DNA from: Effrenium voratum
Lineage: Eukaryota > Sar > Dinophyceae > Suessiales > Symbiodiniaceae
Assembly (NCBI GenBank): GCA_963377175.1
Contig: CAUJNA010001857.1
Coordinates: 1 to 64,000 of the forward strand
Direction: 5' to 3'
DNA: 64,000 nucleotides
Part shown: piece after piece, positions 5,096-34,796 of the stretch
Position numbering within the stretch: position 1 is the stretch's first letter
How the letters are laid out: each line of letters begins with the position of its first letter
Translations under genes and position numbers: made by a program
The notes under the pieces: model-generated
What the model was told of the DNA's origin: nothing
The model's database searches: none
What the model saw: only the letters and a program-made list of their open reading frames with translations

Positions 5096-5125
5096 TTGCG
5101 TGTTTTCAGAAAGCCTGTGGGTTGG
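5096..5125. repeat. Left terminal inverted repeat of the giant element
   Basis: Reads inward as T, then GTTTTCA-GAAA-GCCTGTG-GG. The complement of 34767-34796 reads GTTTTCA-AAAAA-GCCTGTG-AG. About 19 of 22 positions match with one single-base gap. It directly abuts the 9-bp target duplication. Confidence 0.7.
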
Positions 5126-5145
5126 TCGCTAACATAGGGCCCCAA

Positions 5146-5340
5146 AACCACGAAAGAAGTTGCGCAACTTCTTTTGGCAACAGGCAAGTTCTTTTATGAA
5201 CATTTAACTTGTTTTTGCAACTTCTTTTAACAATATCCAACTTTTTAAAGAAAGTTGTCAAATATTCTTTTCATTTCGGCAACATGTTTAAAGATGTTTT
5301 GAAAAACTTCTTTTCAAAGTTGTTCAGAAGTTGCCCAGCT
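5146..5340. repeat. Left subterminal AT-rich zone with 22-bp perfect palindrome
   Basis: A perfect 22-bp palindrome lies at 5153-5174 (arms AAAGAAGTTGC and GCAACTTCTTT). Further copies of GCAACTTCTTTT or GAAGTTGC follow at about 5216, 5306 and 5326. The segment TTTTGCAACTTCTTTTAACA near 5212-5231 matches, inverted, a stretch near 34628-34648 at the other end. Such iterated subterminal motifs are typical transposase-binding regions; that role is inferred. Confidence 0.65.
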
Positions 5341-5483
5341 TCAATAGCTCGTTGTTCGATCCGGATCAGATGGGGAAACCTGTCCGTCGGGCTAGCTTTA
5401 AGACTTTGACACCTTGCGCCCCAAGCGCCATCCACCCCCCAAAAGCAAAAGCCTGGCGCGAAGCCTTTTTTCCCGCACTGCCT

Positions 5484-5618
5484 CTACTGCGACTTACGCT
5501 CCTGAAGCTTCCGCTTCAACGCTACAACGCCCTTAGACTGCGCAGGGGCCACCTCCGCCTCAGCCGCCGGAGCACCCGCCCGCATCTCTGCAACGACCCG
5601 CAGAGCCTGCTGCACGTC
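5484..5618 (-). CDS. Probable last exon of the methyltransferase gene
   Basis: On the minus strand a pyrimidine-rich stretch ending TTTTGGCCAG precedes an open stretch of about 44 codons (DVQQALRVVAEMRAG..., ending LKRKLQERKSQ, stop at 5484-5486). Charged, helical composition suggests real coding rather than chance. It lies 205 bases downstream of the stop at 5823, so a splice may bypass that stop and give the methyltransferase a short basic helical tail. Alternatively it is a separate small exon. Confidence 0.4.
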   Translation of the reverse strand, partial: DVQQALRVVAEMRAGAPAAEAEVAPAQSKGVVALKRKLQERKSQ

Positions 5619-5822
5619 CTGGCCAAAACCGAATCCGAGTCGAGCCAAGACAAACAAACACATATGCACGTGAAAACTTATGTGGGCATTATGACACTAT
5701 AGCTCATTATGACTTATGACTTGGACTCATGACTAATGACTCATGACTCAGGACTTATGACCTGCAACTTCTAGCCCGCCCATGAAAGTCTACGCGGGAG
5801 CGCTACTAATAATATGTAAGCA

Positions 5823-7663
5823 CTAAGCGACTTCGCTGTCCTCCGCCTTTGACACCGGCGTGCTGGCTGCTGCCACAGCTGCGCCGGACTTCCAGCCGAG
5901 TGCTGCGAAGGCGCACTGCAGGATCGTCAGCACGACCGGCAAGGACATCGCGTTCCCAGCCAAGTCCTGCATGAGCTGCTCCGAGGGGCGGTACGACTGG
6001 AGAAGACGGGGGGGCTTTGACGGCCTCTGGTCGGCCGGCCCTGCCCCCCTTTGACCAGCAGGCAGCCCTTGACGCGACTTCTTGGCCGGCGGCCACTCAG
6101 AATCCAGCTCGCCGTCACTAGCCGCATCTTTATTGCCAGAGTCAGATTTGGCGCTTGCCCGAACGTCCCGCAAAGCACGCAGGAAGGCAAGGATCGGGAA
6201 GCCTTGAAACATCAAGGCTTCGCGGCCAAGCATGAGACGCGGCTCGGCGACGCGCCCAGCGGGCTCGATCCAAAGGTTCATCTTCGGAAGCAGCGTAGGC
6301 GCCAGGTGGGTGCCAGTCTCTGACTTCCAAGTAGCTGCGTTTGCTCGCGAAATGCTTTGAGACAAGTCTCGCATCATCGTGTCTGGCGACTGCAGCCGCA
6401 GGAGGGGCAGCGCGTCCTGCTCGCGATCCGTCAAGGTCTGATACCACGCACTGCTCGTCAGGTCTTCCGACTTGCCCTCCCCCCATCTCACACGCAGCAG
6501 CTCGGCCATCTTCATGTGCTGCTCCACCCAGTCTCCAGCCCCGTGGCTATGTCCACCGCCTGCTGGCTTAGAGCCGTGGCCGCTAGCGTGCGCTTGAGCC
6601 TGCTCAGCGAGCCTCCCCTGGCGAGCGCGCAGCTCTGCGCGCACGGCTGGGTCGCTGCTTGCAAGGAGCACAGCCGACGCGCAAGGCCCCCGCCGCATGC
6701 ACCCGGACAGCAGCCCGCCGAAGGTGGCGAAGGTGCAGGCCAAGCTCCTGTCAGCAAAGGAAAGCAAAGGGTTCGCAGTCGCGCGCACTAAGAACACGTA
6801 GAGCCGCCTCCGCCGCGCGGGCAGGCCCCACTCACTGCTATCTGCGACCACCGGCTGGCCTTCGTATCCGTGACTTGCCATCTGGGACATGAAGACGTCC
6901 AGGCTGGAGACGCCGCTAGCTTTCTGCTCCTCCATCGCGTCCACATTCTCGTACAAGATGAGCAGTGGGCGGTGCCGCTCCACGTAGCTCATCAGGCCAG
7001 CAAAGGTCTGCGCCGACCCTCCGCGGGATTCTTTGGAAAGCAGAACAGCTTCCCCGCGCACCCCGCTGGAGTTTGCCTTTGACATATCCTTGCACGACGT
7101 GCCAACTACCAAGAGGTCTACACTCTCCACTCGACAGCAGCCTGGGCCGTGCTCCCAGCACTCGGCAAGGTCGTCCCCCATGTTCCCGATGTTTGTGAAG
7201 ATGCATGGGGCCTCTGGAAGTTGCCCCACTTCCGTCCAGTCGACTTCGCTCTCACGTTCTCCTCTGAGGCGGCTCGCCAAGGAACTGTAGACCGGCTCTG
7301 CGAGCGCGCTGGATGCGTGGATCCACTTACGCTTCTCTTCCGAGAGCTCGCACGAGAAAGCGTGCTGCAGTCTGAATCCAGACCCTTTCTCGGAGAAGAG
7401 GTCATTCAGCGCGGCGATGACCCAAGCCGGCCCTTCTGACCCAGAGCACATGGACCCCCGCCGTAGCACAGCTTCGCCGCAGCCAGGGCTGCCGGGCGAC
7501 ATTTCCGGCAGAGCTCCCAGTTCTGCCTAGCCGCATGCCATAGCCACGAGCCGTCCCTCAGCCACTCAGCAGAAAGAGCGCGAGATGCCGCATCTGCTTC
7601 GCAGGCCCTCACCATTGCCTGGTCCAGCGCAGCCTTTGCGGCACCAGCGCTGCCACGGCTCAT
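5823..7663 (-). CDS. C5 cytosine DNA methyltransferase
   Basis: Transfers a methyl group from SAM to cytosine C5. In the main frame (from 7502) I see, in order: CSGSEG at residues 19-24 (motif I, SAM loop), FSCE at 49-52 (motif II), VDLLVVGTSCKDMSKAN at 128-144 with the nucleophile Cys137 (motif IV, SC in place of the usual PC), YENVDAM at 184-190 (motif VI, ENV), PARRRRLYVF at 228-237 (motif VIII), REALMFQGFP (motif IX) and LAGNAMSLPVV (motif X). An acidic/basic insert with PAKKSR precedes motif X. A preceding stretch from the ATG at 7663 (MSRGSAGAAKAALDQ, then ELCRKC) joins in frame only if the C-run at 7455-7459 gains a base. Dinoflagellate methyltransferases captured by retrotransposons are known; this one sits in a TIR element. 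It is the most downstream gene of the array. Confidence 0.82.
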
Positions 7664-8363: not shown

Positions 8364-9639
8364 CTAGTCTTCACCCTTCTCGCAAGCAAGCTGCGCCGCA
8401 AGCCCGCACGCAGACACCTGGCCAGCGGCCTTGCCTGCTGCTGCCTTGCGCCCAGCCTTCGCAGCGGCCTTTGCCCCAGCCTTCACCTTTGGCGCTGCAG
8501 CAACTCTGGTCTCTGGGCCGCCCCCGGGCTTGGCTTTTGCGCGCGCCTTGGCCGTAGACTTCGGCCGCGCCTTAGGCTCAGCGCTTGCCTTCGCTTCAGC
8601 CTCTGAGTGTCCCGGCGCTGCGGCCGCTTTTGCGAGCACTGGCTTGTCGCGCGCAGCCTCAGCAGCCTTGTCTGTAGCAGCTTGCCCGTCAGGCGTCGCC
8701 TTTGCAGCCTTGCTGCTCTGGCCCAGGGCAGCCGTCTCCTCCTCTGGCGTCCGCTTTTTGGCTGCCTTGGACTGGGAAGGCCCGTCCGCGCAGAACAGCT
8801 GCGCCATAAGATCTGGCAGCTGCGCCATAACTTCCGGCAAGTCCGCATCATCTAGCAAGTCTCTCTTGTGCTTTTTCTCTTTTCGGCTTGCCTCGCCTTC
8901 GTGCCCCTTGCTGCGGCGCTTGCCTAGCTTCTCGCCTCCAGAGCCGGGCTCGCCCTCCTTGGCCTTCTTCTGGTCTCGAGCCTCTTTGCTGCGCTTCTCC
9001 GTCTTCTTTTCCTTTTTCTGCTTCTTGTCTTTGGCACGCTTGTCTTGCTTCTTGGTCTTGTCCCTTGCTTTTGCGTTCTTGGTCTCCTTGCGCTGCTTCT
9101 TCTTCTTTCGCTTTTCCGCGTCAAGCCGCTTCAGCGCTGCCTTGGCCACGCGGCGCCGCCACTCGGGGCCCATTGTGCGTGCACGCCTCTTTCATAGGCC
9201 GAGGCGCGCTTCCCTGCGGCTCGCCTTCGTCTTCCGACTCTATCTTGACGCTGGTGACTGGGCCTGAAGTAGCTGGGCGCTCACTCGCAGGGGGCACAGC
9301 TGCCAAGGTCGGCGCCTGGCCGGTGGCCGCTGGCTCGCGAGGCTTGTCTCCCAGCGCCAAAAGAGCTGGCGCTGCTGGCCCTGCGGGCTGCTTGACTGCT
9401 GCAGGCTCTGAATCTGCACCTTCGCCTGCTGCTGCCGCCTTCTCTGCCTCGCGCGCACGAGGCTGCGGCTTTGCTTGTGGGACTTCTGGGCCGCTGTCTT
9501 TTGCAGCATCCTTCCGGGTAGCAGCGCCACGGGCGCTGGCAGCCGCCGACGCCATACTCTGCTGCTTCCAGCCCAGCAAGACGTCCAGCCTTGGCAGGCG
9601 CGCCCGGTTGCTAGCCACTTCGCCCCAGCGGGTTGGCAC
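8364..9639 (-). CDS. Lys/Ala-rich nuclear protein, histone-H1-like composition
   Basis: Two overlapping minus-strand frames form one coding block. From 9639 it runs DVPTRWGEVASNRARLPRLDVLLGW into an Ala/Glu/Pro-rich, probably disordered region ending PMKEACTHNGP. Dropping one base from the G-run at 9165-9168 carries it into GPEWRRRVAKAALKRLD, a long Lys/Arg charged helix (about 9150-8880), a short LLDDADLPEVMAQLPDLMAQLF hydrophobic helix, and a tail of AKA/AAKAGRKAAAGKAA repeats to the stop at 8364. The tail composition resembles H1 tails and dinoflagellate basic chromosomal proteins; no fold is identifiable. The start is not visible, so upstream exons (perhaps those at 10640-9931) probably join it. 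An in-frame GGCCGCTGGCC copy encodes Ala-Ala-Gly at 8420-8430. Confidence 0.5.
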
Positions 9640-9930
9640 ATCAACAGCTGCAGCCGCCGCTTGTCCCTTTAGCCCCTTTCGTACCTTAGAGGATGGTCAA
9701 AAGCAAGGGGCGCAGACAGGCCTGCGCAGGCTGAAAGAAACTCGCGCATGTTACATTCAGCTTCAGCGGCTGTGATTGATAGGCCCCTTGCGCGTTAGGC
9801 TGCCTAGAAAAGCTGCTCAAGTGGCCTCGAGCCTCCCCGGCAAGTCTCCGAATCAACAACGTGCACTTTGAAACCTGACCTACTGTAACTACTCTGCAAA
9901 CATAACCAAAATGAGCACAAAGATACAGCG

Positions 9931-10841: not shown

Positions 10842-12119
10842 TTAGCTTTGGTGGCCCCCTTGGGCCTCCAGAACTGCGTCAGTCACCGCGCGCACCTCAT
10901 TCTCCTGGGGGATGCCGAGCTTCACTTCCTCCACTCTCACAGCTGCTGGCGCTGACTCGGCTGCCCCCTCCCCTCTGCTGCGCAGGAAGTCTCTAACAAG
11001 AGCGCCAAGAGCGGTGAAGCCTGCCATCTCTTGGCTCTGCAGCTGCTGGTCGACTTTGTCGAGTAGAACGCTCCAGGAAAGAGCCGCAGGCGCCCGGGAC
11101 GGCGCCCTGTCATCCCCGCCGAGAGCGAGCACTCTTTCGGGCAGCGACTTGAAACTGTGCAGCACCTCGGGCGCAGGGAGTCCTGGCACCGCGGCACCTG
11201 CAAAGGCCCAGCGCAGCTTGGGCTCCATAGACAAGCTGAACCGGACAAGCTGCGTGGCCTGCTCAGCGATCACCTTGTAGCAGTCCAAGAGCTTCAGCAA
11301 CTTCTTGTCTTCGCTCAGCTCTGGCTGAGCCTCCTGCCAGAACCGGTGCTCTATGATTTCTTTGTTTGCGAGCACTTCAGCCACGTCAGCGACGGAGAAC
11401 TCTATTGCCTCTCGCGCGCTGTCGTCGTGAAATAGCGCTCTCGTACTCTCGAGCACTCCAGACACGGTGTTGCATAGCTCCTGCCGCAGTCCGGACAGCA
11501 GCCACTTCCAAAACTCTTTTACCAGCAGCTCCAGCTTGGTGGCGTACCTGTTGGCAAGCCTGGCTTGCTGCGGCCCCTGCTGCTTCAGCGCTTGGATCTC
11601 TTGCGAGACTACGCGCCTCTGCCCCCAGAAGGCCGCAGCTGAACACGTAAGCACATCTGCCGTGACGCAGCCGGCGGCCTGGGCGGTGTCTAAGGCAGCG
11701 GAAGCTTTCTGGAGGCTGGTCTCTGCAGCCACGCGTGAAGATCCCTCAGCCAGCACGTCAGCTGCAGCCTGCGCCAAAGCTTGGCCAATCTTGTGCTTTG
11801 CGAAGAAAGCGATGACAGCCCCCCCGCTCGCTTCGCCGCTGAGTTGTTGGAACTTGGCAGTGCCGGCTTCTAAGGCAACGACATCGCCAAGGGACAGAAG
11901 CTCTCTGACCAGCTCGCAGTCTTTCAGTGACTTCTGCGAAAGCTCAGTATCTGGGGCCGCGTGCTCCTCGGCAATAGCCTTGCAAAAGGAATGAGTCTGC
12001 TGCCTGTATTCGCTGTCCTTCTTGCTTGCCTCCTCAAGCGGAAAGCCGCGCAGCAAGCTGCTGAGTCGCTGCTCCACCTCAAGCTCAACCCATCGAGAAA
12101 TTTCGTCCGGCGTCCCCAT
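10842..12119 (-). CDS. Large all-helical protein, N-terminal part of a multi-exon gene
   Basis: An ATG at 12119 opens 425 codons (MGTPDEISRWVELEVEQRL...), with no stop until 10842. Composition is dominated by Ala, Leu, Glu, Gln and Lys in long helices, with scattered Trp (FWGQRRVV, EFWKWLL). There are no Cys/His clusters, catalytic motifs or membrane segments. I do not recognise the family. It is the likely first exon of the gene that continues through 10640-9931 and perhaps 9639-8364. Upstream, 12120-12492 holds no coding stretch and is likely the spacer from the preceding gene. Confidence 0.5.
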   Translation of the reverse strand: MGTPDEISRWVELEVEQRLSSLLRGFPLEEASKKDSEYRQQTHSFCKAIAEEHAAPDTELSQKSLKDCELVRELLSLGDVVALEAGTAKFQQLSGEASGGAVIAFFAKHKIGQALAQAAADVLAEGSSRVAAETSLQKASAALDTAQAAGCVTADVLTCSAAAFWGQRRVVSQEIQALKQQGPQQARLANRYATKLELLVKEFWKWLLSGLRQELCNTVSGVLESTRALFHDDSAREAIEFSVADVAEVLANKEIIEHRFWQEAQPELSEDKKLLKLLDCYKVIAEQATQLVRFSLSMEPKLRWAFAGAAVPGLPAPEVLHSFKSLPERVLALGGDDRAPSRAPAALSWSVLLDKVDQQLQSQEMAGFTALGALVRDFLRSRGEGAAESAPAAVRVEEVKLGIPQENEVRAVTDAVLEAQGGHQS

Positions 12120-12492
12120 CTTCAGCAGCTCTCGAACCTACGGGTGGACTAAGACTTCGGTTGACTGGTCTAGACATGTGTTTTTTTGGGACTTGGCCTG
12201 GACAAGCCCATACAATGCCGCAAGGTGAGCAGTGAGCAGGAGCAATCTAAACAGCAGGGGCCAGCTGGCTGCGAAAGTCTAGGCTGCAGTAAAGCATCAT
12301 AAATCAACGAGCAGGCGATCCCTGGATGAGATCAAACAGATTGGCTACCTTGCGTCCCAAATGAGCCCCCCCCTCCCCCTCAGCACCCTGCTGGGAAGCA
12401 CAGCAGTATAGGCGCGCCGGGGCTAGGCTCAACGTGAGGGCTAGCGGCTGGCCTACAACTTACAACCTGAAACTCGCTGCTCACAACTTGCC

Positions 12493-13953
12493 TCAGCAGC
12501 TTCCTTGCGGCCACGAGCCCCCCCTCCCCAAGTGCCGAGCCTCCTTGGCAGATGAGCGAAAAAGTTGAGAGTAGCCGACAAAGTCGCGATACAAGCAGAA
12601 GTGTGCGCACTTGGCCTCGAGAAGCGCCTCCCACACGCCAGGCCCGAGTTCTATACGCATGGGAGGGGCAGCGAGGCAGGCTTCTACAGCTTCTCCCAAG
12701 TCCTGCGCTGAAGGGTTGGCGGCGTAGAGTTGCTTGAGCAAGTCCAGCAGGAGCCCAGCCGCGCTCCGAGCTTTCTGAAACCTATCCAGCTCAGCGAGCA
12801 GACCTTGTCGGTTGGGGCTCTCCTCAATCCTCTTGATGTGCTTGTTGGCGCCCGTGAGGACGGACGCCAAGGCTTTGCTCTGCTTTGTGAAGATTTGCTT
12901 GGCGTCTTTGCTCAGTAAGTTCACGTCCAGCGCCAAGTGCGCTTGCATTGACTCCTCCAGTTTCTGGGCGGCCTCCTGCAAGTTCTCGCGGAGTCTCAGG
13001 CCGCGCCCGTCCAAAACAAAGGCCTCGGCTTCAGCCGGCTCACCCCGCGATCGCGCCTCTAACTTCTGCTTTTGTAGGTTCGAAGCAGCTGGCGCGCTGG
13101 GCGCACCGGGAGCCGTGCTCGCAGCTGGCGCCCTGGCCACCTTCGTCTTGGCTGCACTGCTGCCTGTGGGAAGCTGCTTAGCCTTCGCCTTTGCCTTGGC
13201 TCTACCGCCCAAACGACCACCCACGCTGGCAGCCAGGGCTGCCAGAGCATCTTCTTCCTGCTCACTGTCTGGCAAGTCTTCCTCTTCAGGCTCCCAGTGT
13301 GGAAGTGGTGCTTCTGCGGCTGATGGTGCACCTTCGCCGGAGGTCTCTGCTACCCCAGCCAAAGCAGTGTCTGGGACAAGCCCGCGCAGCGCACCAAGCA
13401 CTGCACTCAGCTCCATGGGAGCAGGGCCAGCGGCCACCGTGTGCTTCGCTCTCTGGTCCGATGCGTCCGTGAACACTTTGCCTAGCGCCTCCTTTTTGAC
13501 TGCCAGAGCTTCCTCAGCGAACATGCCTTCTCCTGTGTGCTGCCTTGTCCGCTCTGTCAAGTTGGCTTCCTCAAAGTCTTCAACTTCTAGCACACCTTCC
13601 CGGCCTGCGGCCTTGTAGATGCCCTTCACGACCTTGCCGCCCCAGGTGATCTCCACTATCTTGTTCTCGTCCAGCGGACCGTCCAACTTCTCGTCCCAGT
13701 GGTCCAGCAGGACGAAGTTCCGCTTGGGGCCTTTCATCTTCACCCCGGTCTTCGCCTCCGTGTCCAGGACAGTCTTGGCCCTTTTGAGGGCGGCCACGTC
13801 AACCTTCACGAGGCCGGGATTGGCATTGTGCTGCCGAATCCACTCCTGGACCGCCTTGAGAAAGCGGCCGTGGTCCTGCGCGTTCTCCCGCGAGGCCTGC
13901 AGCCACTTGTGGTACTCTGCGTAGCTCTTGTGCTTGAAGAGACCGGAAAGTCG
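12493..13953 (-). CDS. C-terminal half of the HMG-like/zinc-finger protein
   Basis: The frame continues from the upstream half after a one-base shift at the A-run 13954-13957: RLSGLFKHKSYAEYHKWLQAS, then a basic region (ALKRAKTVLDTEAKTGVKMKG), a compact beta-like segment (IVEITWGGKVVKGIYKA), an acidic Glu/Asp tract, an AKAKAKAKQ tract, and a helical C-terminus ending at 12493. It looks like a nuclear protein with DNA-binding basic patches; function unknown. The 11-bp element motif lies at 13425-13435 in codons for Ala-Ala-Gly. The last codons before 12493 (GRGGSWPQGSC) may run into intron. Confidence 0.5.
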   Translation of the reverse strand, partial: RLSGLFKHKSYAEYHKWLQASRENAQDHGRFLKAVQEWIRQHNANPGLVKVDVAALKRAKTVLDTEAKTGVKMKGPKRNFVLLDHWDEKLDGPLDENKIVEITWGGKVVKGIYKAAGREGVLEVEDFEEANLTERTRQHTGEGMFAEEALAVKKEALGKVFTDASDQRAKHTVAAGPAPMELSAVLGALRGLVPDTALAGVAETSGEGAPSAAEAPLPHWEPEEEDLPDSEQEEDALAALAASVGGRLGGRAKAKAKAKQLPTGSSAAKTKVARAPAASTAPGAPSAPAASNLQKQKLEARSRGEPAEAEAFVLDGRGLRLRENLQEAAQKLEESMQAHLALDVNLLSKDAKQIFTKQSKALASVLTGANKHIKRIEESPNRQGLLAELDRFQKARSAAGLLLDLLKQLYAANPSAQDLGEAVEACLAAPPMRIELGPGVWEALLEAKCAHFCLYRDFVGYSQLFRSSAKEARHLGRGGSWPQGSC

Positions 13954-24480: not shown

Positions 24481-24577
24481 GTGCACTGATAACAGTCATG
24501 CCTGTATTTTTTTTGGGTGCAGACAGCGGCCTGCTTGTCCGCATCCTCCTGCTTCCAGCGTCGAAGCCTTGGTCTAA

Positions 24578-25300
24578 TTAAAGGGGTGCATGACTGCGAC
24601 CCCCTAGATCGCAGACAAGGGACATCTTTGCAGCAGCCTCCAGCTCGTCTGGGTCCATGCCGTTGAAGGCCTTTGCGGCCTCCGGCTCCATCTGCGCAAG
24701 CAGCATCTGCTGGCCACGGGCCAGGGTCTGCAAGGACCTACAGGCAAAGCGCAATGCAACAGTGAAACGCAACAAGCTGAGTCCCCGGCTGCAGGCTGGG
24801 CAAGCTTCCGACCTAGAAACAAACGGGAGACAAAAGACTTTCTCGATTTGCGCGCAACATATTTTTAAGCGAGCCGCCGCCTCCTGAGACGCGGAGTCCT
24901 CCAGGGCGAGCTGCGCATCAGCAGCCTTGCGAGCAGCAACAACACGTGCCGCCTCATGCGCGCCAGCCTCCAGATCCGCCAAGGCCTCTGCTTCCGAGTC
25001 GACCTCGACGTCGGCCACCTCGTCCTGCTGGGTGTCGAGGTCCTCGGGCTGGCGGTCCGGGAGGGTGTCTGCAGTGTCGACGGCCTCGCCAGCCTTGCGC
25101 TTGCGCGCGCACTTCGGGGCAGACTCGCCGTCCGCGAGCTCCTTCTCGAGGTCCTGCTCCAGCTTAAGCTGCTGCAGAAGCTCCTTGGCCTCTCGTTGAG
25201 AGATGCCGCAGGCAGCAGCAAGCTTCTTGCAGCCGGGCAAGCGTCCACCGTTGGCCGCTCGGAGCTCCTCCAGCTGGACGCTGAGGCTGTCCACGTCCAT
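24578..25300 (-). CDS. First exons of an unrecognised gene (MDVDS start)
   Basis: An ATG at 25300 starts MDVDSLSVQLEELRAANGG, followed by GCKKLAAACGISQREAKELLQQLKLEQDLEKEL, which looks like a helix-turn-helix-style segment plus coiled coil, then CARKRKAGE (possible nuclear localisation signal) and an acidic/Ala-rich helix. A probable intron at about 24735-24875 interrupts it (the intervening translation is Cys/Phe-rich and unlike its surroundings). Coding resumes at SLQTLARGQQMLLAQMEPEAAKAFNGMDPDELEAAAKMSLVCD. I chose 25300 rather than an upstream non-ATG start because MDVDS also begins the small protein at 32576. Confidence 0.5.
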   Translation of the reverse strand: MDVDSLSVQLEELRAANGGRLPGCKKLAAACGISQREAKELLQQLKLEQDLEKELADGESAPKCARKRKAGEAVDTADTLPDRQPEDLDTQQDEVADVEVDSEAEALADLEAGAHEAARVVAARKAADAQLALEDSASQEAAARLKICCAQIEKVFCLPFVSRSEACPACSRGLSLLRFTVALRFACRSLQTLARGQQMLLAQMEPEAAKAFNGMDPDELEAAAKMSLVCDLGGRSHAPL

Positions 25301-25321
25301 GGCCAGGCTTGGGTGCGGCAC

Positions 25322-26400
25322 AGGGGCCGGCGAGCACGTGAGCAGCTAAACGTGCTGCTGATCGCAAACACGTGTGAAATGATGATCTGTGCAATGTGGG
25401 CGAACACATGCCCCATGGATCTCGATGTATTGGGGGCGAACACGTCCCCGCCCCCGATCAGCGGGAAAACCCTCCCTGTGCAGTGTGTGCGAGTAGGCGC
25501 CCCGCGGGCGCGTGAAAATTCACGCTTTTTCACGGGGTTTTCCCGCTGATTGGGGGGGTTTTCACGCTGAAATCTCGCTTTTTCACGCCACCGCCGTTGG
25601 TGGCTCCGAAGCCCGAGCAAGGACCAGTTCGACTGCAGAGCGAACTGCTTCTGCCCAGCGCGAAGGGCTGTGCAAATTCTTCGATCTACTCAGATACCGG
25701 ATCACGGATACCAGATCGGCCTGAGCAAACAGGTGGCCAGATTGACATATATGACGCCAAAGGCATTCAAGAGCCGCAGACCCACACAAAGCAGGCGTGC
25801 TGAATCTTGGACCCTCTGGTGGCCAGCATAGAGGCCAAAGTGATACATACTGGCACTCATATCGAAGCAAAAAGCAGTGAGGCAGGAGCCGGGTGAACTG
25901 CCTTCGAAGGGCCAACTGGGATCAGTACTAGCCCACAAAAAAGGATGCAGCCCCAGGCGAGCGAGCAACTGATGAGTACTGCCCTTCATTTAAAAAAAAC
26001 AGGCAAGGGCCAAGTGAATCTCGTGCAGGCGATAGCCATGAATACAGTCACTCATATCGAAACAAAAAGCACGGAGGAAGGGGCCGGGTGAACGATGAGC
26101 ACTGGCCAGCGCAGAGGGCAGAGCGATGAGTACTGGCTCGCAAATGGAAACAAACGCAGGGCCAAAAAGATGTGAACTAGCCCACACATGGAAAAATACC
26201 AGGGAAGCAGGGCTTCAAACTCTGGAAGCAGGGGACCTTAAGGCGGGCAGAACTGGCAAAAAAACCGGGGAAGCGTCTGGTGAATCTGGATCTACAAAAA
26301 GGCGAGCCAGATGGATACGATACACAATACTACTTAAAGACACGCAAAAAACAAAAAGCACCAATCTGAGGCCGCAGCGTCCTCACACAGACTGACCTTG
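25322..26400. other. Non-coding stretch with a degenerate ~195-bp direct duplication
   Basis: No gene seen. 25842-25990 and 26037-26185 share, in order, CACTCATATCGAARCAAAAA, GGGCCGGGTGAAC-like, GATSAGTACTRGC-like and ACTAGCCCACA-like blocks, about 195 bp apart. At 25500-25590 the segment TTTTTCACG recurs with GGGGTTTTCCCGCTGAT. Confidence 0.5.
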
Positions 26401-26631
26401 GACCAGTCGATGTCCTGCAAGGAGAGGCACTTCACAGCAAATGTGCGCCAAAAGGCCTGGAAGAGCTCGAAGTCGGATTTGCCGAGGTCAACCTTCACGG
26501 GCATGTCAGGCAAGGCCTGAGTCACATGCAAGGGCAGGCGCACCTGCAAGAAGCACCGCGTTAAGGGCCCTGCAGGCCACTCAGGCGCCTGAGCTTCACG
26601 AAGCAGGGCCGCCAGATGAGCGCCCAATCGC

Positions 26632-27870
26632 TCAGGGTATGTCCTGGGCACGCGCGCCCGCCAAAGCACCAAAAAAATGTTTGCATCTATGCAGCTGGCT
26701 TTGCTTCAAGCGCGGCGTGCCAGAGTAGCCGGCAGTTCCATCTGGCTTCCTGTACTTCTTGGTGAGTGGCGGGCCGCCAAAGAGATCCAGCTGCTCCCGG
26801 GAAAGGTGGCCTGATGCAATATGCAGGCGCTTCACAAGCTCTCGGTCGTTGGACCACATAGCGTGGCGTTTGGGGGTGCATCTGCCAGCGTCCCCGTACG
26901 CGCCGCCCCAAATGCCACAGGAATGCACCTGACAAGCAAAGTGGATTGGCATCAACCAAGAAACGCATGCGCCCGAGTCCTTGTGATCCTCGAAGAGCTT
27001 TGCCACAGCAGGGTGATGAGGGAGAGCGCTTCCAGCTGGCTGCTCCATCAGCCACCTACCCACAAAAAAAAAATGCGAGCGCGTGCGCTCACAGGCCTGC
27101 CCTTCGAAGCTGCGATGTAGCGAAGCAGTAAGCCCACACGAGCAGCCAGGCAGTTGCCTGTTTTCACAAACTGAAAGCCGCGGTTTCCTTCCGGAAACAA
27201 AAGCGACCTTCCGTGGTTGGCAGCAGCCCTGCCAGCACGCGTGAGACGCAGCCACATGTTGCAAGCAGAGGCGCTGAGTTGCTGAGGGCCGGGCGGAGCG
27301 CAAAAGCTGTTGCAGCAAATGGCCACCAAGTGCAAGGAGCCCGGCTTGCTCCGCGCAATGGCCAGCAAGGCTAGCCTCAGAACTCAGGCAGCCCACTACA
27401 GCCATGAAAAGCCCCTTGCCGGCGAGTTTCGCAAAGCCAGCCGAGGCAGTGAAGTCCATGGCGCGCCCGTCATCTAGCAAGATGTCCAGGGACGCACCTG
27501 CGAAGCCATTGGCTCTGAGCTGGGCGCTGACACGAGCAGCGCCACAAAAGTACTCCACGAAGTCGTTGACCTGGGCAAGAAAAGGTGAGAAAACACAAGG
27601 GTGCGGGCCGGGCACCTGGGCGCTGCTCTGAACGGCGCTATTGTGCAACAAAAGGAGCACCGCGAGAACCAACATCTCCGGGCAGGCCGCGGCCAGCATT
27701 TCAGCAACGACCATTGCGACAGCACGCGGGCCCCCGACAGTACGTGAGCCCTGACAGGGCTGCAGCCAGAAATGCGAGATCGAACGCGCTAATTCGCGCA
27801 TGACGTGTCTGGGCTGAGTTCCGCCCGACCCCATGGACCGAAATCCATCCCCAAGCTTTGCCTCAGGCAA
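26632..27870 (-). CDS. Cytosine-methylase-like (pseudo-MTase) protein
   Basis: A hydrophobic segment (MLVLAVLLLLHNSA, about 27665-27620) is followed by VNDFVEYFCGAARVSAQLR and ANGFAGASLDILLDDGRAMDF (27573-27440), matching the shape of a SAM-binding F-x-G-x-x-x loop and the acidic end of strand 2. After a short probable intron (a GCAAGG donor near 27410), another frame gives LAIARSKPGSLHLVAICCNSF, LRLTRAGRAAANHGRSLLFP and a GNRGFQFVKTGN block. A final exon has GRWLMEQPAGSALPHHPAV (27065 onward) and ends near 26632. ICCNSF and MEQPAG sit where motif IV (PC) and motif VI (ENV) lie in C5 methyltransferases, but the catalytic PC is not kept. I recall this family as highly repeated in dinoflagellates. 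Activity is doubtful. Confidence 0.5.
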   Translation of the reverse strand: MPEAKLGDGFRSMGSGGTQPRHVMRELARSISHFWLQPCQGSRTVGGPRAVAMVVAEMLAAACPEMLVLAVLLLLHNSAVQSSAQVPGPHPCVFSPFLAQVNDFVEYFCGAARVSAQLRANGFAGASLDILLDDGRAMDFTASAGFAKLAGKGLFMAVVGCLSSEASLAGHCAEQAGLLALGGHLLQQLLRSARPSATQRLCLQHVAASHACWQGCCQPRKVAFVSGRKPRLSVCENRQLPGCSCGLTASLHRSFEGQACERTRSHFFFVGRWLMEQPAGSALPHHPAVAKLFEDHKDSGACVSWLMPIHFACQVHSCGIWGGAYGDAGRCTPKRHAMWSNDRELVKRLHIASGHLSREQLDLFGGPPLTKKYRKPDGTAGYSGTPRLKQSQLHRCKHFFGALAGARAQDIP

Positions 27871-28807
27871 AGCGCCGCCGCTTGAGCTCTTTCTCGCTCA
27901 AGGTTGTGAGAAACAGCGCCCGTTCCGAGCTGAGCATCCACGCCTTCGTGGCCTCTGCGAAGGTGTTGCCAGCGGACCGGCGTCGACTCACAAAAGCCGA
28001 CTTGAGCTGCTGGAACTCTTTGGGTTTGTAGACAGCTTCCCCGGCTGCAGCAAGGCCCAACTGCTTCTCGAGGTCCTCGTCGGCCTTGAGCTTGGCCGCC
28101 GCAGACTTCTTCTGCTTCTGGGCCGCCTTCTTTGCAGGTGGCTTGGTTGCAGCTTTGGGCACTGCGGGCTTGGCAGGCGACTTGGCCTTGCGTTTGCCCT
28201 CGGGCGCCGTGCTGACGGGCTCGGCAGGCGGCAGCGAGCAGCTGAGCTTGCTCAGAGCACTTAGCACATGCTCGGGCACACTGTGGCGGCCAGGGCTGCC
28301 AGTGCGTGGCCCCTTTTCAGGCTTGAGCGCCTGCTGGCGAGGTTGTGCGTGCACAGGCTGCGCAGGTTGCGTCTTGAGCGCCTCGATCTTCTGCTTAAGC
28401 ACTGCCCACGGGTCGAACACCTCAAGGCAGCCCGGCACAGCTGCCGGAGACGTTACCTGCGCGGGTGGCGGCGTCGAGCTCGAGGACGGGCAGCAGGTTG
28501 AGGGAGATCCCAGGCACAGGTCCTGCAAGCGCTCCTTCAGACTTTGCAAAGCCCCTGTTTTTGAAGCACCCGGCGACTCGTACACCAGTCGCTTAAACTT
28601 CTGGCAGACTTTGCGCGCGCCGTAGGCCATTCGACTTGCCCACTTCGCCAGGGCCTGCTGGCTTATCCCGGACGGGGCAAGCTTCTGCGCGTCGTAGAAC
28701 TCAAGAATGGCTTTCGCCAGAACCAGTTCTGAGAGCCGCGCCTTGGGCGTCACCGTGAGGATCGCCGCTATCACCTGACAATGGTCGACAAGACGCACGC
28801 TTAACAC
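27863..28807 (-). CDS. Basic helical protein preceding the methylase-like gene
   Basis: An open stretch of 314 codons. From about 28775 it reads VIAAILTVTPKARLSELVLAKAILEFYDAQK, then ALAKWASRMAYGARKVCQKFKRLVYES, a Pro/Ser linker, a Lys/Ala/Pro tail (KSPAKPAVPKAATKPPAKK), and a C-terminal EATKAWMLSSERALFLTTLSEKELKRRRFA to the stop at 27863. The opening codons before VIAAIL are probably intron. It overlaps the next frame by 8 bases only as an accident of frames. Likely nuclear by charge; no enzyme motif. Confidence 0.45.
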   Translation of the reverse strand: MLSVRLVDHCQVIAAILTVTPKARLSELVLAKAILEFYDAQKLAPSGISQQALAKWASRMAYGARKVCQKFKRLVYESPGASKTGALQSLKERLQDLCLGSPSTCCPSSSSTPPPAQVTSPAAVPGCLEVFDPWAVLKQKIEALKTQPAQPVHAQPRQQALKPEKGPRTGSPGRHSVPEHVLSALSKLSCSLPPAEPVSTAPEGKRKAKSPAKPAVPKAATKPPAKKAAQKQKKSAAAKLKADEDLEKQLGLAAAGEAVYKPKEFQQLKSAFVSRRRSAGNTFAEATKAWMLSSERALFLTTLSEKELKRRRFA

Positions 28808-29080
28808 GCACGCAACGCAGCTGAAGTGGCCGCCTCCGTGTTGGCTTCAACGTCCTTGCGCGTGGGCTCGGCCTGCTCGAACAAGCCTTCGGAGTGGGCC
28901 ACGACGAAGCTGAAGCCGGCCTGGCGAAACAATCCGAACACATGCATGCGCGTGAATTCGTGCAGGCGCAGCCGGCGCCTCTCTCAGAGCCGCCACCTTA
29001 GCAAACTCTGCAGCGTAGCGGCTGACCACCTCCGGCTCATCCTCGACCAGCTTCAGCTGGCTGCAGGATCCACACGATCG
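28801..29080 (-). CDS. Short upstream exons of the basic/methylase-like gene region
   Basis: Two short coding-like pieces on minus. One reads LKLVEDEPEVVSRYAAEFAK (about 29066-29007). The other begins RRRLRLHEFTR and an ATG at 28947, continuing MHVFGLFRQAGFSFVVAHSE and TEAATSAALRAC to a stop at 28801. The second is only 49 codons from its ATG. Regular hydrophobic spacing (VFGLFRQAGFSFVVA) argues for real coding. They may be N-terminal exons of the 28807-27863 protein. Confidence 0.35.
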
Positions 29081-29344
29081 CCGAGCCGGGACAGCTGGGT
29101 CGTGTGCAAAATGAAAACTGCAATAGCTAAATTTGCGAATGACACACGCGCAGCTCAACACGTGGCGCACTGGGCTGCAGGTCACGCCACCAGCGCCACC
29201 GCGGAGCTTGCGCCTCTGTGTAGCACAATCGGCGGCTGCTCATGCAGTCAAACAAACGAGGCCGGCACCCTAGCGCGAGGCATCTCGATCTGGCGGAAAA
29301 GGGCCTTGAAAGGCCAAGGCTCTTGCAGCTGCCCCCCCCCCTAA

Positions 29345-29905
29345 ACCAAAAACACGAGGCCCGCGCCAGATCGACGAGCAACGCCACTCACCTGCGCAAA
29401 AAGCAGCCAGGCGAACAACGAGACGGAAAAAAAAGGGAGCCAAGGCCCGCGCCAGATCTTTGAAGACGACCCCACCTGCACGACGGCCGGCCGACAAGAC
29501 AAAGCGAAAAAAACAAAACAAAACAAAAAACAAGGCCCCGCCAGAAGACGAAGAAGAGCACCTGCGCGAGCGAGACGAGCGACGACGACACGAGAAAAAA
29601 AAGCCAAGGCCCGCGCCAGAAGACGAGGAAGGGCACCTGCGCGAGCGAGACGAGCGACGACGAGACGAAAAAAAAAGAGAAAAAAAAAGCCAAGGCCCGC
29701 GCCAGAAGACGAGGAAGAGCACCTGCGCGAGCGAGACGAGCGACGACGAAACGAAACGAACAAAAAAAAAACAGGCCCGCGGCAGAAGGCGAGGAAGAGC
29801 ACCTGCGCGAGCGAGACGGGCGACGACCGAGCGGCAACGACCGGAAAGAAAAAAATGAGGCCCGCGCCAGCGACGCCGTCGAAGCACCGGGCTGTACCTG
29901 CGCAA
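29345..29905. repeat. Imperfect ~80-87 bp tandem repeat, about six units
   Basis: Each unit has AGGCCCGCGCCAGAAGACGA, then GCACCTGCGCGAGCGAGACG and AGCGACGACGA, then an A-rich filler of variable length. Unit starts are at about 29358, 29446, 29532, 29605, 29692, 29772 and 29857. Both strands stay open for long stretches because of composition (Arg/Glu/Lys on plus, Ser/Leu/Phe on minus); neither is accepted as a gene. On minus each unit contains GCGCAG followed by GTGC. Confidence 0.75.
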
Positions 29906-30377
29906 GAGCGAGCTATAAGCCAGGCAAAGAGTGCTGGCAATCAAGCGGCTGATCACAAGGCGCCGGCCGCTCCCAGCCATGCGCCTCGGGTGATCAGCAG
30001 GACGCTCGAGCACCCACGGAAGCAGATCAAGCGGAGTCAAGCGCGTGCATGCAGCCCGCGCAGAATTTTCCACTCATATCGTCGATCCGGCCGCCCGGCC
30101 AGCGCAGCGTGCACGTCACGGTACCTGGCCGGCAACAAAAAAGGATCGCTATGGTATGTAAGGGCCCGGCCGCTATGGCGACGAGCCCGAGCTGCAGCGC
30201 GCAGAGGTGAAGCCTGCGCAGGAGCAGGATGAATATAATGTGCTTTTTAAGCTTAAGGAAGTTGACAGCCTGAGCCACTGCCAGCGATGCTGCCTGCGTC
30301 GCTGCTGCTGCTGCGGCTGCGGCTGCGGCTCGGCAGCTCCTCAGATCAAGCTAATCAACCACGCAATCGCATGCAGT

Positions 30378-30764
30378 TCAAAACCACGAACGCGCAACTG
30401 AGGATCTGGCCGGGGGAGCGAGCCCTGGACGGGCCACCGGCCAAACCGCTCGCACCGGCCTCGCAAGCTGGACCGGCGGCGGACGCGCCTTAGGCTTGGC
30501 CCCAAGGCCCAGCACGCGTGGCTGCTGCTCCGGCAGCTGGTGCTGCTGCTGCTGGTGCTGCAGCTGGTGCTGCTGGTGCTGCAGCTGGTGCTGCTGCTGG
30601 TGCAGCTGGTGCTGCTGCTGGTGCTGCTGCTGCTGCTGCTGCTCTGGCCTGGGCGGCGCCTGCAGCGGTGCCTGCAGCGGCGCCTGCAGCGGCGGTTGCC
30701 GCCACTGCCAAGGCCGCGGCGGCGGCCTGGCAGGAAAACGAGTGAAACCGATCAATGGACGCAC
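30378..30764 (-). repeat. CAG/CTG repeat, Gln-rich or Ala-rich in translation
   Basis: 30515-30648 is a degenerate (CTG)n/(CTGGTG)n tract, and 30660-30700 has three GCCTGCAGCGGC-like units. On minus it would encode a Gln/His tract (HQLQHQQHQLQ) between Pro-rich segments; in other frames poly-Ala or poly-Leu. It could be a polyglutamine exon, but the frame is undecidable from sequence alone. Confidence 0.6.
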
Positions 30765-30843
30765 GTAGACCGCTGGGCCGCCGTCCCGAAGCTCTTCGCG
30801 AAGCTCCCGGGAGGCCTCTCAGCGGCAGGCGGCCACGTGTACC

Positions 30844-31164
30844 TCAAATTGCGACTAAGTCACATGGCGCAATGATGCAGCGAATCTGAGCTCCAGGCCC
30901 GCGGCCCGTGGTCCCGCCACCGGGCAGGCTCCGCACGAGCTCCTCGATCCGGCGCTCCAGATCGAGGATCTCGCGCTGGCGCGCCGCCTCGTCGCCTGCG
31001 ACATGCGGATGGTCGCAGTCAATGTGCGAATGGAACACGTCGCGCCTCCGGCCGGCCGCATGCCGGCCAGCGGGCCCGAGGCTGAGCCAGTGCGGCCACG
31101 GATGCAACGGCGGCAATATTAAGCCAAGCTCATGATCATGCACGCAACACGCATCGATATGCAC
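30844..31164 (-). CDS. Possible exon with charged helix
   Basis: The minus frame contains DEAARQREILDLERRIEELV followed by RSLPGGGTTGRGPG. The helix is convincing as coding (about 30985-30925); the His-rich lead (FHSHIDCDHPHV) is less so. It lies between the phosphatase-like gene and the CAG repeat. No function can be assigned; it may belong with the Gln-rich stretch downstream. Confidence 0.25.
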   Translation of the reverse strand: MHIDACCVHDHELGLILPPLHPWPHWLSLGPAGRHAAGRRRDVFHSHIDCDHPHVAGDEAARQREILDLERRIEELVRSLPGGGTTGRGPGAQIRCIIAPCDLVAI

Positions 31165-31470
31165 ATGCGTGCTTGGATGTAAGCGCCACGCCGGCGCGGC
31201 GCAGGGCCCACAACGAAACGGATCGGCCCAATTGAGCCGTCGAAAAACGGCTCTGCAGCCGCAGCGTGTTTTTTAGCGTTTGTGTTTTGGGGGGTTGTGA
31301 CTTAAGGAATTAAAGCCGCCAACCCCTAACAAAAGGCGTTACAGAATGGCAACACAACTATATCGCGGTCACTCCAAGTCTCACACTCCAAATTTGGCTT
31401 GGCTGCGGGGTGATCAGCACGATACGGGGGTGATCAGCACGAAACGGCGTATCACCTTGAAAACCCCCTA

Positions 31471-31995
31471 TCACCTTGAAAACCCTCTATCACCTTCTCG
31501 CGGGGTGAAGAACACGAAACACATGTCTAGGTCGCCTCCAAGAACTGGGCCGGCGTCCGCACAGGGGCCTCCCAGTGGCTCTGGAAGCGGTGGTGGCCCG
31601 GGTGGTAGGTGTCGAAGTCGCAAATCTCCCATGTGCTGCATCGCCTCGGCGGGCAAGAGCCCGCACAGGACGCACAGAAGCAGCGCCAGCCACAGAGCAC
31701 TGCGATGCGCCCCGTTCTTGCAGACCACCAAGACCCGGCCCCCGGCCGCAAGCTCTTTGGCCACCGTGCGCAGCACAGACAGCACTGTGGCCCACTTGAT
31801 GCTCCCGCGGCACACGCCGGTTCCATCGAAGGTGCCGATGTTCTTGATGAACGCGGCCCTGGCAGCCGAAACGTTGCTCCCTGCGCAGAGCACGGCGCTG
31901 ATGCCGTTGACACGGAGGAGCTCGGCGTTCCCGCCCGCGTTCAAGCCGCCAATCCACAGTTCCCCCCCCTCAGGGGTCCGCAAGGCCAAGTGCAT
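31471..31995 (-). CDS. Dual-specificity phosphatase-like protein
   Basis: On minus: ELWIGGLNAGGNAELLRVNG (strand/helix typical of the DSP N-terminal part), ISAVLCAGSN, IKWATVLSVLRTVAKELAAG, then GRVLVVCKNGAHRSALWLAL. CKNGAHR fits the CX5R P-loop of protein tyrosine/dual-specificity phosphatases (Cys nucleophile, Arg phosphate binder, Ser after Arg). The usual His before Cys is Val here and the general acid Asp is not obvious, so activity is uncertain. The part after LLPAEAMQHMGD is likely intron or tail. It may be one exon of a larger gene. Confidence 0.55.
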   Translation of the reverse strand: MHLALRTPEGGELWIGGLNAGGNAELLRVNGISAVLCAGSNVSAARAAFIKNIGTFDGTGVCRGSIKWATVLSVLRTVAKELAAGGRVLVVCKNGAHRSALWLALLLCVLCGLLPAEAMQHMGDLRLRHLPPGPPPLPEPLGGPCADAGPVLGGDLDMCFVFFTPREGDRGFSR

Positions 31996-32081
31996 TGGGT
32001 GCCTTGGCTGCGCCAGAGGCGACGTCTCAACTCCAAACAGCCGCCGGGCGAACTTAAATCATAACATAATTGCGTGCCAGG

Positions 32082-32576: not shown

Positions 32577-32787
32577 GGCAAAGCCGCTGGCAAGGAGGAG
32601 CGAAAACAGTCAGAGCTGAAAACTGAAAACCAAAAGGCTGCCAGAAGGACAAGCATTCGAGCCGCCCAGCCGCAAACCCGCAAAGCACAAACGCTGACAA
32701 CACTGAGATACCACAAGCTTGAGCCCCAACAAAGACCGGACCAACACATAACTAACACTTGAAGGGCTTAAGTCGTGAGGTCAGCTA

Positions 32788-34350
32788 TTAGTAGTTAATA
32801 ATAGTCTTCAGCTTGTTCGCCTGGCTGACTAGTGAAAATCTTAGACGAAAGTGACAAAAGCGCAGGAACAAAACGTGTCCTGTCCACGGCCCATTGAAGA
32901 AGCTCTCCAGCTCTGCAAGCCCAGGTCGCAGACCTTCGTCTTCTCCGTCGTGGCCTGCGTCGTCTTGGGCGCTGGCCTCGAACATGCTGCACAAAGCCAG
33001 GAACTGCCGGGTCTGCGACCGCGCTCGAGACCACTCAGCCTGCACGCCAGCGGGCTCTGCTTGCAGGAGCTGCAGCCTCGCATCCAGCGCTGCGGCAGCT
33101 CTCCGCCTCAAAACTTGCAAGGCGTGTCTAGAAGTCAAGACGCGCGAGACACAGAAGCAGCCCCCGAGGTTGCCTAAAAGATGGGTGAGCTGTTCTACAA
33201 CGTTCCCATTTCTATGCTGGGTGCAGAGTAGGGGCAAGAACAGCTGGTCGGGGCTTTGCGCCGAATCAAGATGCTTCAGCATCTTGATATTTGCTGCGTG
33301 CGCGTCAGAGGTTGTGACCGTGCAGGTGTGGTCGGCGCACACGCTGCAAGCCCCCGCTCCACCTGCGTGGTCAGACAAGGTCTTCCACATGGTCGCAGAG
33401 TTCATGGGCGCCAGAACCTGCGGCGCGCGCACAACGCGCTCATCTTGCACATGAGCTCCCGCGCGCCCGTCGCCCGCCGCGCTGGCCCTCCCCAAAGTCC
33501 ACTGCGCGTGTGAGCACAGCAGCGAGCAAGCGCTCACAGGGTCCTTCCCAACCTTCAGATCGAACGTGCTTTCGTCGAACATCAAGTTGCGGATGAAGAA
33601 AGAAATGGGCTCATTGCGCGATTTCTCGACAAGCCGCTCACACCCTTCTTGCTGGGCACTAAGGACTGCCGCGGCGCAAGTCTGACGGGCCATCAGAGCT
33701 TGGGCGGCAGAAGCCCCTTCCACTTCCTTTGCAATCTGCCTTGCCGTGGCGCTCTCCGAGCCAAACCCTGCGCGAAGCACCGCCTCTGGCGTCCAAGTCT
33801 TCCAGGCACCGCGGCCGGCAGCTTGAGCTCGGCCCAGGTCGCGCCCTGGCATTCGGTGATCGCTCGTTCGAGCACGCCCGCTTTTGTTGAAGCTCTTGCC
33901 CTGCAGCGCCAGCTGCTTCTGTTTCAGCTGCTCCGCAGCTTGTCCCCGGCGGCGAACAGCATTCTGGGCTTGCTGCTGGCGCCTGGGTCCTACTGCCAGG
34001 CGCCGCAGTGCCGGCCGACGGCCACGCCGGGCGGCCGCAGCTTCGCCTGGGCCACCTGCAGCTTGCTCAGCTTCGCCTTCCGCTTCTTCTGCCTCCGCAT
34101 CTCCTGCTTCTTCCGCCTGGCCCGCGGCCGCTCTTTTGCGACCTCGGCCACGCCGGCACCCCGCTGCTCCTTCAGCCGGGCCAGCAGCCGAGTTGCCTCC
34201 GCCCTGGCCCCGCTCGCTTCGCTCTGACAGCTCGGGCTCCAGGCTGCCGTACTGCTCCACCAGGCGTAAGACATCACCGAAGTCGAGAGGCCGGGCTGCC
34301 ATGAGCGGCGCCGCCCACTCGAGCCACGTGCTACAGCACGCGCCGGCCAC
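32788..34350 (-). CDS. Transposase-like protein next to the right end of the element
   Basis: ATGs at 34350 and 34302; the second (MAARPLDFGDVLRLVEQYGS) looks the better start. A basic coiled-coil stretch follows in a neighbouring frame (LLARLKEQRGAGVAEVAKER..., about 34225-33995), so two compensating frame changes are present. The main body has KTWTPEAVLRAGF, RNLMFDESTFDLKV (acidic residue in a strand), SACSLLCSHAQW, VCADHTCTVTTSDAHAANIK (second Asp), LPLLCTQHRNGNVVEQL, and ELESFFNGPWTG near the end. Asp in FDES, Asp in SDAHAAN and a following C-x2-H resemble RNase-H-fold transposases of the hAT/MULE type. A third acidic residue is not certain. Position just inside the right terminus fits a transposase; this is inference. 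Confidence 0.5.
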   Translation of the reverse strand: MAGACCSTWLEWAAPLMAARPLDFGDVLRLVEQYGSLEPELSERSERGQGGGNSAAGPAEGAAGCRRGRGRKRAAAGQAEEAGDAEAEEAEGEAEQAAGGPGEAAAARRGRRPALRRLAVGPRRQQQAQNAVRRRGQAAEQLKQKQLALQGKSFNKSGRARTSDHRMPGRDLGRAQAAGRGAWKTWTPEAVLRAGFGSESATARQIAKEVEGASAAQALMARQTCAAAVLSAQQEGCERLVEKSRNEPISFFIRNLMFDESTFDLKVGKDPVSACSLLCSHAQWTLGRASAAGDGRAGAHVQDERVVRAPQVLAPMNSATMWKTLSDHAGGAGACSVCADHTCTVTTSDAHAANIKMLKHLDSAQSPDQLFLPLLCTQHRNGNVVEQLTHLLGNLGGCFCVSRVLTSRHALQVLRRRAAAALDARLQLLQAEPAGVQAEWSRARSQTRQFLALCSMFEASAQDDAGHDGEDEGLRPGLAELESFFNGPWTGHVLFLRFCHFRLRFSLVSQANKLKTIINY

Positions 34351-34489
34351 AAGCTGATTCAGGAAAAAAGAGACTTAGCGCTTCCTGCCTGCCTACTCCC
34401 TTAACCTCATCTTGCACCTCCTCTCTAGCAAGCGTTTTGCTGTTACCCTGGCCACTCGCCCCGAGGGAACCTGCTGCCAGCCAAAAAAA

Positions 34490-34745
34490 ACTACTGTGTA
34501 ATCAAGAATGTAACCTTGCGCTGCCTACAAGCAAACGAAGCTAAAATGCAAAACTTTCCATAAACATTATCTCACGAAAAAACAAGTTGTTTAAACAACA
34601 TGACATATTCTGTTAAATTGTTTCATGTTAAAAAAGAAGTTGCAGAAACTTCTTGTTAATAAGATAACTTGTTTGTTTCCACGAAAACTTAATTTAAAAA
34701 CATTCCAAAACAATTTAAAGAACATTGTTTGCTCCTAAAGAACAT
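34490..34745. repeat. Right subterminal AT-rich zone with GAAGTT palindrome
   Basis: AAGAAGTT and AACTTCTT arms around a 5-base loop at 34634-34654. GTTAAAAAAGAAGTTGCAGAAA matches, inverted, the left zone near 5212-5231. ACATTGTTT repeats sit at about 34722 and 34741. It mirrors the left subterminal zone and contrasts sharply with the GC-rich interior. Confidence 0.65.
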
Positions 34746-34766
34746 TGTTGTCGCGTTTCCTAGGAG

Positions 34767-34796
34767 GCCTCTCACAGGCTTTTTTGAAAACGCCCA
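34767..34796. repeat. Right terminal inverted repeat of the giant element
   Basis: CTCACAGGC followed by a T-run and GAAAACGCCC. Its complement matches 5096-5125 at about 19 of 22 core positions with one gap, and it abuts the 9-bp duplication at 34797-34805. Confidence 0.7.

Follow-up and report, generated by a model that had tools for sequence, protein, structure and literature searches.

Does the 29.7-kb insertion in a contig of the dinoflagellate Effrenium voratum, a free-living relative of coral algae, represent a single giant transposon with cargo, or did more than one mobile element build it? The locus lies in a stretch of 64,000 nucleotides (contig CAUJNA010001857.1, positions 1 to 64,000; hereafter the window), for which an earlier sequence-only reading had proposed one element of 29.7 kb, bounded by terminal inverted repeats (TIRs) and carrying about ten minus-strand genes. 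Our results indicated that the outer ends hold, and that they enclose a 17.7-kb transposon with a second, nested transposon of 12 kb inside it. The outer element is probably a member of a multicopy lineage of cut-and-paste DNA transposons that is hAT-like, carries a Dnmt5-type cytosine methyltransferase as a fixed accessory gene and, in the window, was interrupted by the second transposon.

Ends and genomic copies of the outer element

With the nested element included, the outer transposon spans positions 5096-34797 (29,702 bp), as delimited by alignment with related copies and by the joined flanks; without the nested element and its 2-bp repeat, its size is 17,713 bp. The 9-bp direct repeat described for its edges (AAGTATTTG at 5087-5095 and 34797-34805) is present. 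However, one of the nine bases belongs to the element itself: the right end of related copies reads ...CGCCTAA, so that base 34797 (the extra A) is the last base of the element and the target-site duplication is 8 bp (AGTATTTG at 5088-5095 and 34798-34805, from the aligned ends of related copies). The suggested affinity with Mutator-like elements was not supported by these ends, as target duplications of that group are 9-11 bp long.

Related copies and a TIR pattern place the left TIR (TTGCGTGTTTTCAGAAAGCCTGTG) at 5096-5119 on the plus strand and the right TIR (reverse complement TTGGGCGTTTTCAAAAAAGCCTGTG) at 34773-34797 on the minus strand. The inverted repeats reported just inside the direct repeats were confirmed (GTTTTC-AGAAAGCCTGTG against GTTTTCAAAAAAGCCTGTG), with a score of 26 that was reached by 1 in 3000 random pairs of 60-bp segments drawn from the window. 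hAT TIRs start with YARNG, and the termini of our element (TTGCG and TTGGG in the window, TTGGG and TTAGG in relatives) match four of these five positions. Composition and motif positions also bear out the AT-rich subterminal zones (5120-5395 and 34498-34772), since GC content is 0.39 at the left and 0.33 at the right outer end vs. 0.61 in the element interior. The left zone contains AACTTCTT/AAGAAGTT repeats, and the right zone contains the same motifs together with two copies of TAAAGAACATTGTT. Six of the seven AACTTCTT/AAGAAGTT repeats in the window, and all of those in four other copies (3, 3, 3, and 1), lie no more than 350 bp from an element end. Across these five copies, the repeats and AAGTTGTT are nearly all confined to the terminal 350 bp, a distribution that fits putative subterminal binding sites of a transposase.

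With regard to the insertion site, a plus-strand open reading frame (ORF) left of the element (3408-5012) has no Pfam match, and we read it as retroelement-like. Removal of the insert together with one copy of the repeat leaves a frame of 179 amino acids open across the joined flanks (plus strand, 4915 to 5095 and onward from 34806). This agrees with the sequence-only reading and supports the insertion of the outer element into a retroelement-like element.

The outer element belongs to a multicopy family in the E. voratum genome. A DNA search with its left half recovered eight loci whose methyltransferase gene is 65-71% similar to that of the window; five of these were compared and proved mutually 93-99% identical over shared segments, with sharp common ends. 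The left 201 bp, used alone as a query, found no other copy. A TIR pattern built from the element ends did find others: it gave 23 matches in 1.156 Gb, vs. 0 forward and 1 reverse for the reversed pattern used as a control. Nine inverted pairs were found in this way (C10, C289, C458, C1502, the window, C2557, C3134, C3203, and C3379), and two further TIR-bounded copies by alignment (C341 and C402); the count excludes contigs with one pattern match only (C1890, C2888, and C3090) as well as C1791, where a run of N takes the place of the right end. All 11 copies (6.5-29.7 kb) are flanked by direct repeats, with a target duplication of exactly 8 bp in nine of them, while longer direct matches lie inside simple repeats at C2557 (TA repeats) and C3379 (CAAA repeats). 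The lineage thus has ends of the TTGSGTGTTTTYAGAARGCCTGTG type with an inverted equivalent, and 8-bp target duplications. Other loci sharing these ends had been expected by the earlier reading and do exist, with flanking repeats of 8 bp instead of 9; the same ends and target duplications at those loci uphold its view that a dinoflagellate genome here contains a large, cargo-carrying TIR DNA transposon. We consider this a clear 8-bp-duplication system in a dinoflagellate genome.

Three of the copies (C10, C3134, and C3379) form a second TIR subfamily (TTGGGTGTTTTTAAGAGGCCTGTGGTC) with remnants of the methyltransferase and of the p4 gene described below. Exact 8-bp duplications flank two of them (C10 and C3134), and the third lies in the CAAA repeats.

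The nested 12-kb element

Positions 19545-31531 are a separate transposon of 11,987 bp (CCTAGACA...TGTCTAGG), flanked by a 2-bp duplication (TC at 19543-19544 and 31532-31533). Its left boundary recurs at eight other loci with flanks that differ from locus to locus (C3100 reads CCCAGACA), and its right boundary is the same in the right-end stretches examined. Judged by eye, the two bases before the element equal the two bases after it in 9/9 copies, including that of the window. Its gene at 20930-22419 (minus strand) encodes a probable transposase of no assigned superfamily, with no Pfam match and no meaningful NCBIfam match. This gene was considered as a KDZ transposase of the outer element and rejected, given its place in the nested element and the lack of a Pfam family to support that name. 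A further ORF of the nested element (26632-27897, minus strand) is presumably S-adenosylmethionine-dependent methyltransferase-like, with no convincing family match.

Could the whole 29.7 kb nonetheless be one intact giant transposon that picked up the ten genes as cargo and is mobile as a unit? Both outer ends are intact, the duplication is perfect, and nested insertions that are carried along have been reported for giant transposons of Ectocarpus (PMC12477816). We nevertheless regard a single moving unit as very improbable, given the separate ends, the 2-bp duplication and the eight copies at unrelated sites of the inner element. In addition, the ORFs of the nested element had no match in five copies of the outer family (tblastn, E up to 1e-4), and the inner element lies between segments of one outer gene: P0001, a gene model of E. 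voratum, ends at 31530, and P0040, a model of S. necroappetens, can be aligned to either flank of the inner element (31947-31618, then 17337-17242, and from 16352 on). The earlier count of about ten genes mixes two elements, and public gene models combine several of the window ORFs, as exons, into a smaller number of genes.

The outer copy at C458 (C458:313586-333098; L065, L066) contains a different insertion of 13.8 kb, which encodes a relative (24-30% identical) of the probable transposase of the nested element. This can suggest that the nested-element transposase lineage may hit the outer family repeatedly. As for the order of events in the window, the outer element would have entered the retroelement first and the unrelated 12-kb transposon would have followed, within the transposase gene module. 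The nested insertion may leave the window copy unable to make its own transposase.

The gene module and its candidate transposase

The conserved genes of the outer element encode an RNase H-fold protein (D, D, CxxH), a phosphatase-like segment, a protein with an ER motif and an HMG box, and the Dnmt5-type methyltransferase, all on the minus strand. The first, p1 (32788-34374), has a predicted RNase H-fold domain with conserved D267, D357, and C384xxH387, and is the N-terminal part of the candidate transposase. A dual-specificity-phosphatase-like segment (31532-32058; VCKNGAHRS, CX5R) abuts the nested element and is recognized by sub-threshold matches only (PF00782) and by a phosphatase label on its homologue P0015. 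Beyond the nested element are exons with weak, sub-threshold similarity to ankyrin repeats (17242-18810), of which 17242-17337 is collinear with P0040. They are followed by p4 (13806-16373), which consists of a helical domain, an HMG box and a C-terminal domain; the TSTFIER motif of the helical domain is conserved and includes the candidate catalytic E. The methyltransferase gene (5823-7526) closes the module; a Pfam match to C5 cytosine DNA methyltransferases (PF00145, E 1.7e-13) identifies it, and it had been missed by the earlier reading.

To evaluate the linkage of these genes, we searched the genome with p1, with p4 (through the nearly identical ORF P0023) and with the methyltransferase (E below 1e-19), counting genes no more than 30 kb apart; all counts are lower bounds. 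Matches were found on at least 32 contigs for p1, at least 25 for p4 and at least 28 for the methyltransferase. Twelve contigs with methyltransferase matches of E above 1e-19 were left out, including C3090 (p1 near) and C15 (p4 near, on the opposite strand). At 14 loci all three genes are present, in the invariable order p1-p4-methyltransferase and on one strand (by eye). Nine loci have p1 and the methyltransferase without p4, three have p4 and the methyltransferase without p1 (all TIR-bounded), and at two (C1968 and C1380) the methyltransferase stands alone, so that the module accompanies the methyltransferase at 26/28 loci. The three-gene copies at C372, C1079, C3068, C105, C1448, and C364 (~15 kb each) score the same or almost the same with two or three of the markers and have long open frames, which suggests that they multiplied recently. 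In six cases in public records (149850, 638996, 99190, 26421, 89732, and 257240), the contig of a p1 or p4 homologue equals that of a methyltransferase homologue in length; two of these cases are labelled S. natans. This is an indirect sign that the homologues share a contig, and different assemblies of the same species may be present among the unlabelled records.

We infer hAT membership of the outer element from several likenesses. The 8-bp target duplication, short TIRs and subterminal repeats are also features of Hermes, Ac/Ds, and Tol2, and the predicted p1 fold matches Hermes structurally. The CxxH after the second D of p1 and the TSTFIER of p4 (an ER-F motif) are similar to hAT signatures. 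Transposases of the hAT superfamily combine an RNase H fold and a D-D-E triad with an insertion domain placed between the second D and the E. Unlike known hAT elements, our element has termini that start with TT, a length of 17.7 kb, a Dnmt5-type methyltransferase, and a transposase that is split by the phosphatase-like and ankyrin-like parts and includes an HMG box. Furthermore, no hAT profile of Pfam (dimerisation or transposase domain) matched at E up to 1 among 19 A3 and 19 A4 members, where divergence could mask a match, and sequence profiles of p1 and p4 found no transposase in PDB. An NCBIfam search found the methylase and otherwise weak, unrelated matches only.

Two observations weigh against our interpretation. 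One is that the ends of most three-gene copies were not seen. This would be compatible with duplicated host gene clusters (p1, p4, and methyltransferase) captured by a non-autonomous TIR element; capture of host genes is common, and the two solitary methyltransferase loci point in the same direction. Such an origin appears very unlikely to us, because gene order is kept at the 14 loci even at ~40% identity, the equal-sized contigs suggest likewise elsewhere, and shortened family copies retain their ends without the middle part, like transposon derivatives.

The other is that TNP-like_RNaseH_N, a P/THAP9-type family, matched one of 19 p1 homologues in Pfam (E 0.22). The outer element could accordingly be assigned to a different superfamily with 8-bp duplications (KDZ/Zisupton or P-like), and Foldseek with the p1 structure prediction ranked RAG1 and the P element transposase first, albeit weakly (E 0.03 to 0.04). 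However, Hermes aligned over 124 residues vs. 81-92 for the top integrase rows, the two motifs named above are hAT-like, and Pfam scans of the insert ORFs and of the p1 and p4 homologues gave no KDZ family match. We therefore consider this placement unlikely, although Zisupton duplications are 8 bp long (PMC12730594), as are those found here.

Returning to a hAT-like element, the minus-strand module, read from right to left, would encode a DDE transposase of which p1 supplies the first two acidic residues and the CxxH, and p4 the glutamate motif and the HMG box. The phosphatase-like and ankyrin-like segments would lie between p1 and p4, an unusual transposase architecture, with the methyltransferase at the other end of the module. 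The transposase would bind the subterminal repeats and TIRs and would cut and paste the element. It is possible that the methyltransferase methylates element DNA, and thereby either conceals the element in a methylated host genome or restrains the expression of the element itself.

In each of the five genes compared, the substitutions that separate the window from its relatives fall mainly on third codon positions. For the methyltransferase, the nonsynonymous rate (dN) is 0.33 and the synonymous rate (dS) is 2.41, the latter near saturation and undefined for p1 and p3. The pattern points to purifying selection in the outer-element lineage.

Among the remaining genes of the outer element (minus strand), p3 (12493-14121) has no assigned function and is kept in five family copies, and p2 (10842-12137), also without assigned function, is kept in the C402 copy (~39% identity). 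Lysine/alanine-rich ORFs (8364-9696) make an uncertain gene, and a Pfam scan of 8364-9173 gave no match. At C102, a frame of 1938 amino acids that the genome search with p1 had indicated was not found in the 2.5 kb downstream of p1, where the phosphatase-like segment is present.

The Dnmt5-type methyltransferase and known elements

The motifs CSGSEG, TSCKD, ENV, RRRR, and GNAM are present in the predicted methyltransferase. A profile search limited to PDB sequences gave Cryptococcus Dnmt5 at E 2.9e-42, and the next best match at 2.7e-8. We do not class the enzyme as a canonical Dnmt5, whose SNF2 ATPase is C-terminal, since Pfam found no SNF2 ATPase in the ORF, which ends shortly past GNAM; loss of SNF2 in dinoflagellate Dnmt5 members has already been published (PMC12344493). 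The methyltransferase ORF has a frame offset near 7505 relative to the 99% identical ORF P0043, and p4 has one between ~15084 and ~15165 relative to P0023. Both reference ORFs come from another source, and either mutation or sequencing error could account for these offsets.

DNMT5c (PMC9998398) is likewise Dnmt5-related, without SNF2 and restricted to dinoflagellates, and has ~1000 unannotated residues before the methylase; it differs from our enzyme in that the consulted portion of that article does not describe it as mobile. An N-terminus of this length would fit a methyltransferase downstream of a transposon protein, and could itself be such a protein (the two were compared by description only); in E. 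voratum, gene model P0101 fuses parts of p1, p4, and p3 with the methyltransferase in this manner. More tentatively, and with some doubt on our part, DNMT5c might be no host enzyme but one that accompanies an ancient lineage of hAT-like DNA transposons as an accessory, its thousand N-terminal residues corresponding to the transposase, phosphatase, and HMG segments. If true, much of the capacity for Dnmt5-type cytosine methylation in Symbiodiniaceae would come from a mobile element. Our results make the origin of the Dnmt5-type enzymes of dinoflagellates testable, and our searches found 63 homologues.

Mobile elements with cytosine methyltransferases and conserved catalytic residues are known from Symbiodiniaceae (SymbioLINE-Dnmt and SymbioDIRS-Dnmt3; PMC5890265). 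These are retrotransposons with Dnmt3 or lineage-specific enzymes, whereas in our case a Dnmt5-type enzyme is carried by a TIR DNA transposon; the same article mentions DNA transposons with a methyltransferase for marine viruses. Fungal TET/JBP DNA transposons (e.g., KDZ and hAT7; PMC12730594) also carry an enzyme acting on 5-methylcytosine and have 8-bp or 7-bp duplications in some lineages, but that enzyme is a dioxygenase. The giant KDZ, EnSpm, and Sola-1 elements of Ectocarpus (10 to >30 kb; PMC12477816) resemble ours in their extra genes, nested insertions, and, in a Sola-1 element, a DNA methyltransferase; they differ in superfamily and in the enzyme, which is predicted to be N4-cytosine/N6-adenine specific. 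The kind of element is thus already known, both from methyltransferases in dinoflagellate retrotransposons and from giant cargo DNA transposons in algae, and it is the combination and the possible link to DNMT5c that look new. No title or abstract opening that we found describes a dinoflagellate DNA transposon with a cytosine methyltransferase, in a search whose coverage excluded most subscription journals. Our results add a lineage of cut-and-paste DNA transposons, apparently conserved in more than one genome, to the dinoflagellate retrotransposons that have captured cytosine methyltransferases.

The sequence-only reading had also compared the locus with Starships and Mavericks, a comparison that holds in style only. 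Starships are marked by a tyrosine-recombinase captain gene, and Mavericks/Polintons by DNA polymerase B, integrase, and capsid; none of these was among the Pfam matches of 18 insert ORFs. An integrated viral genome (Polinton, virophage, or giant-virus fragment) would be in keeping with the large size and the methyltransferase, and endogenous viral elements have been reported for dinoflagellates. Yet the same Pfam matches include no packaging ATPase either, p1 patterns run on viral contigs gave 10 stretches and 0 relatives, and the many copies have 8-bp duplications, all of which makes a viral origin extremely improbable.

Elsewhere in the window, a 100-N assembly gap (39195-39294) adjoins tandem repeats of GTGTGTTGTTG. 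Tandem arrays that are long, low in complexity, and strongly skewed between strands occupy 44793-45702, 41726-42285, 48222-48890, and 1-846, and a tandem array of ~61-bp units with internal 82-bp perfect repeats is located at 58766-59423.

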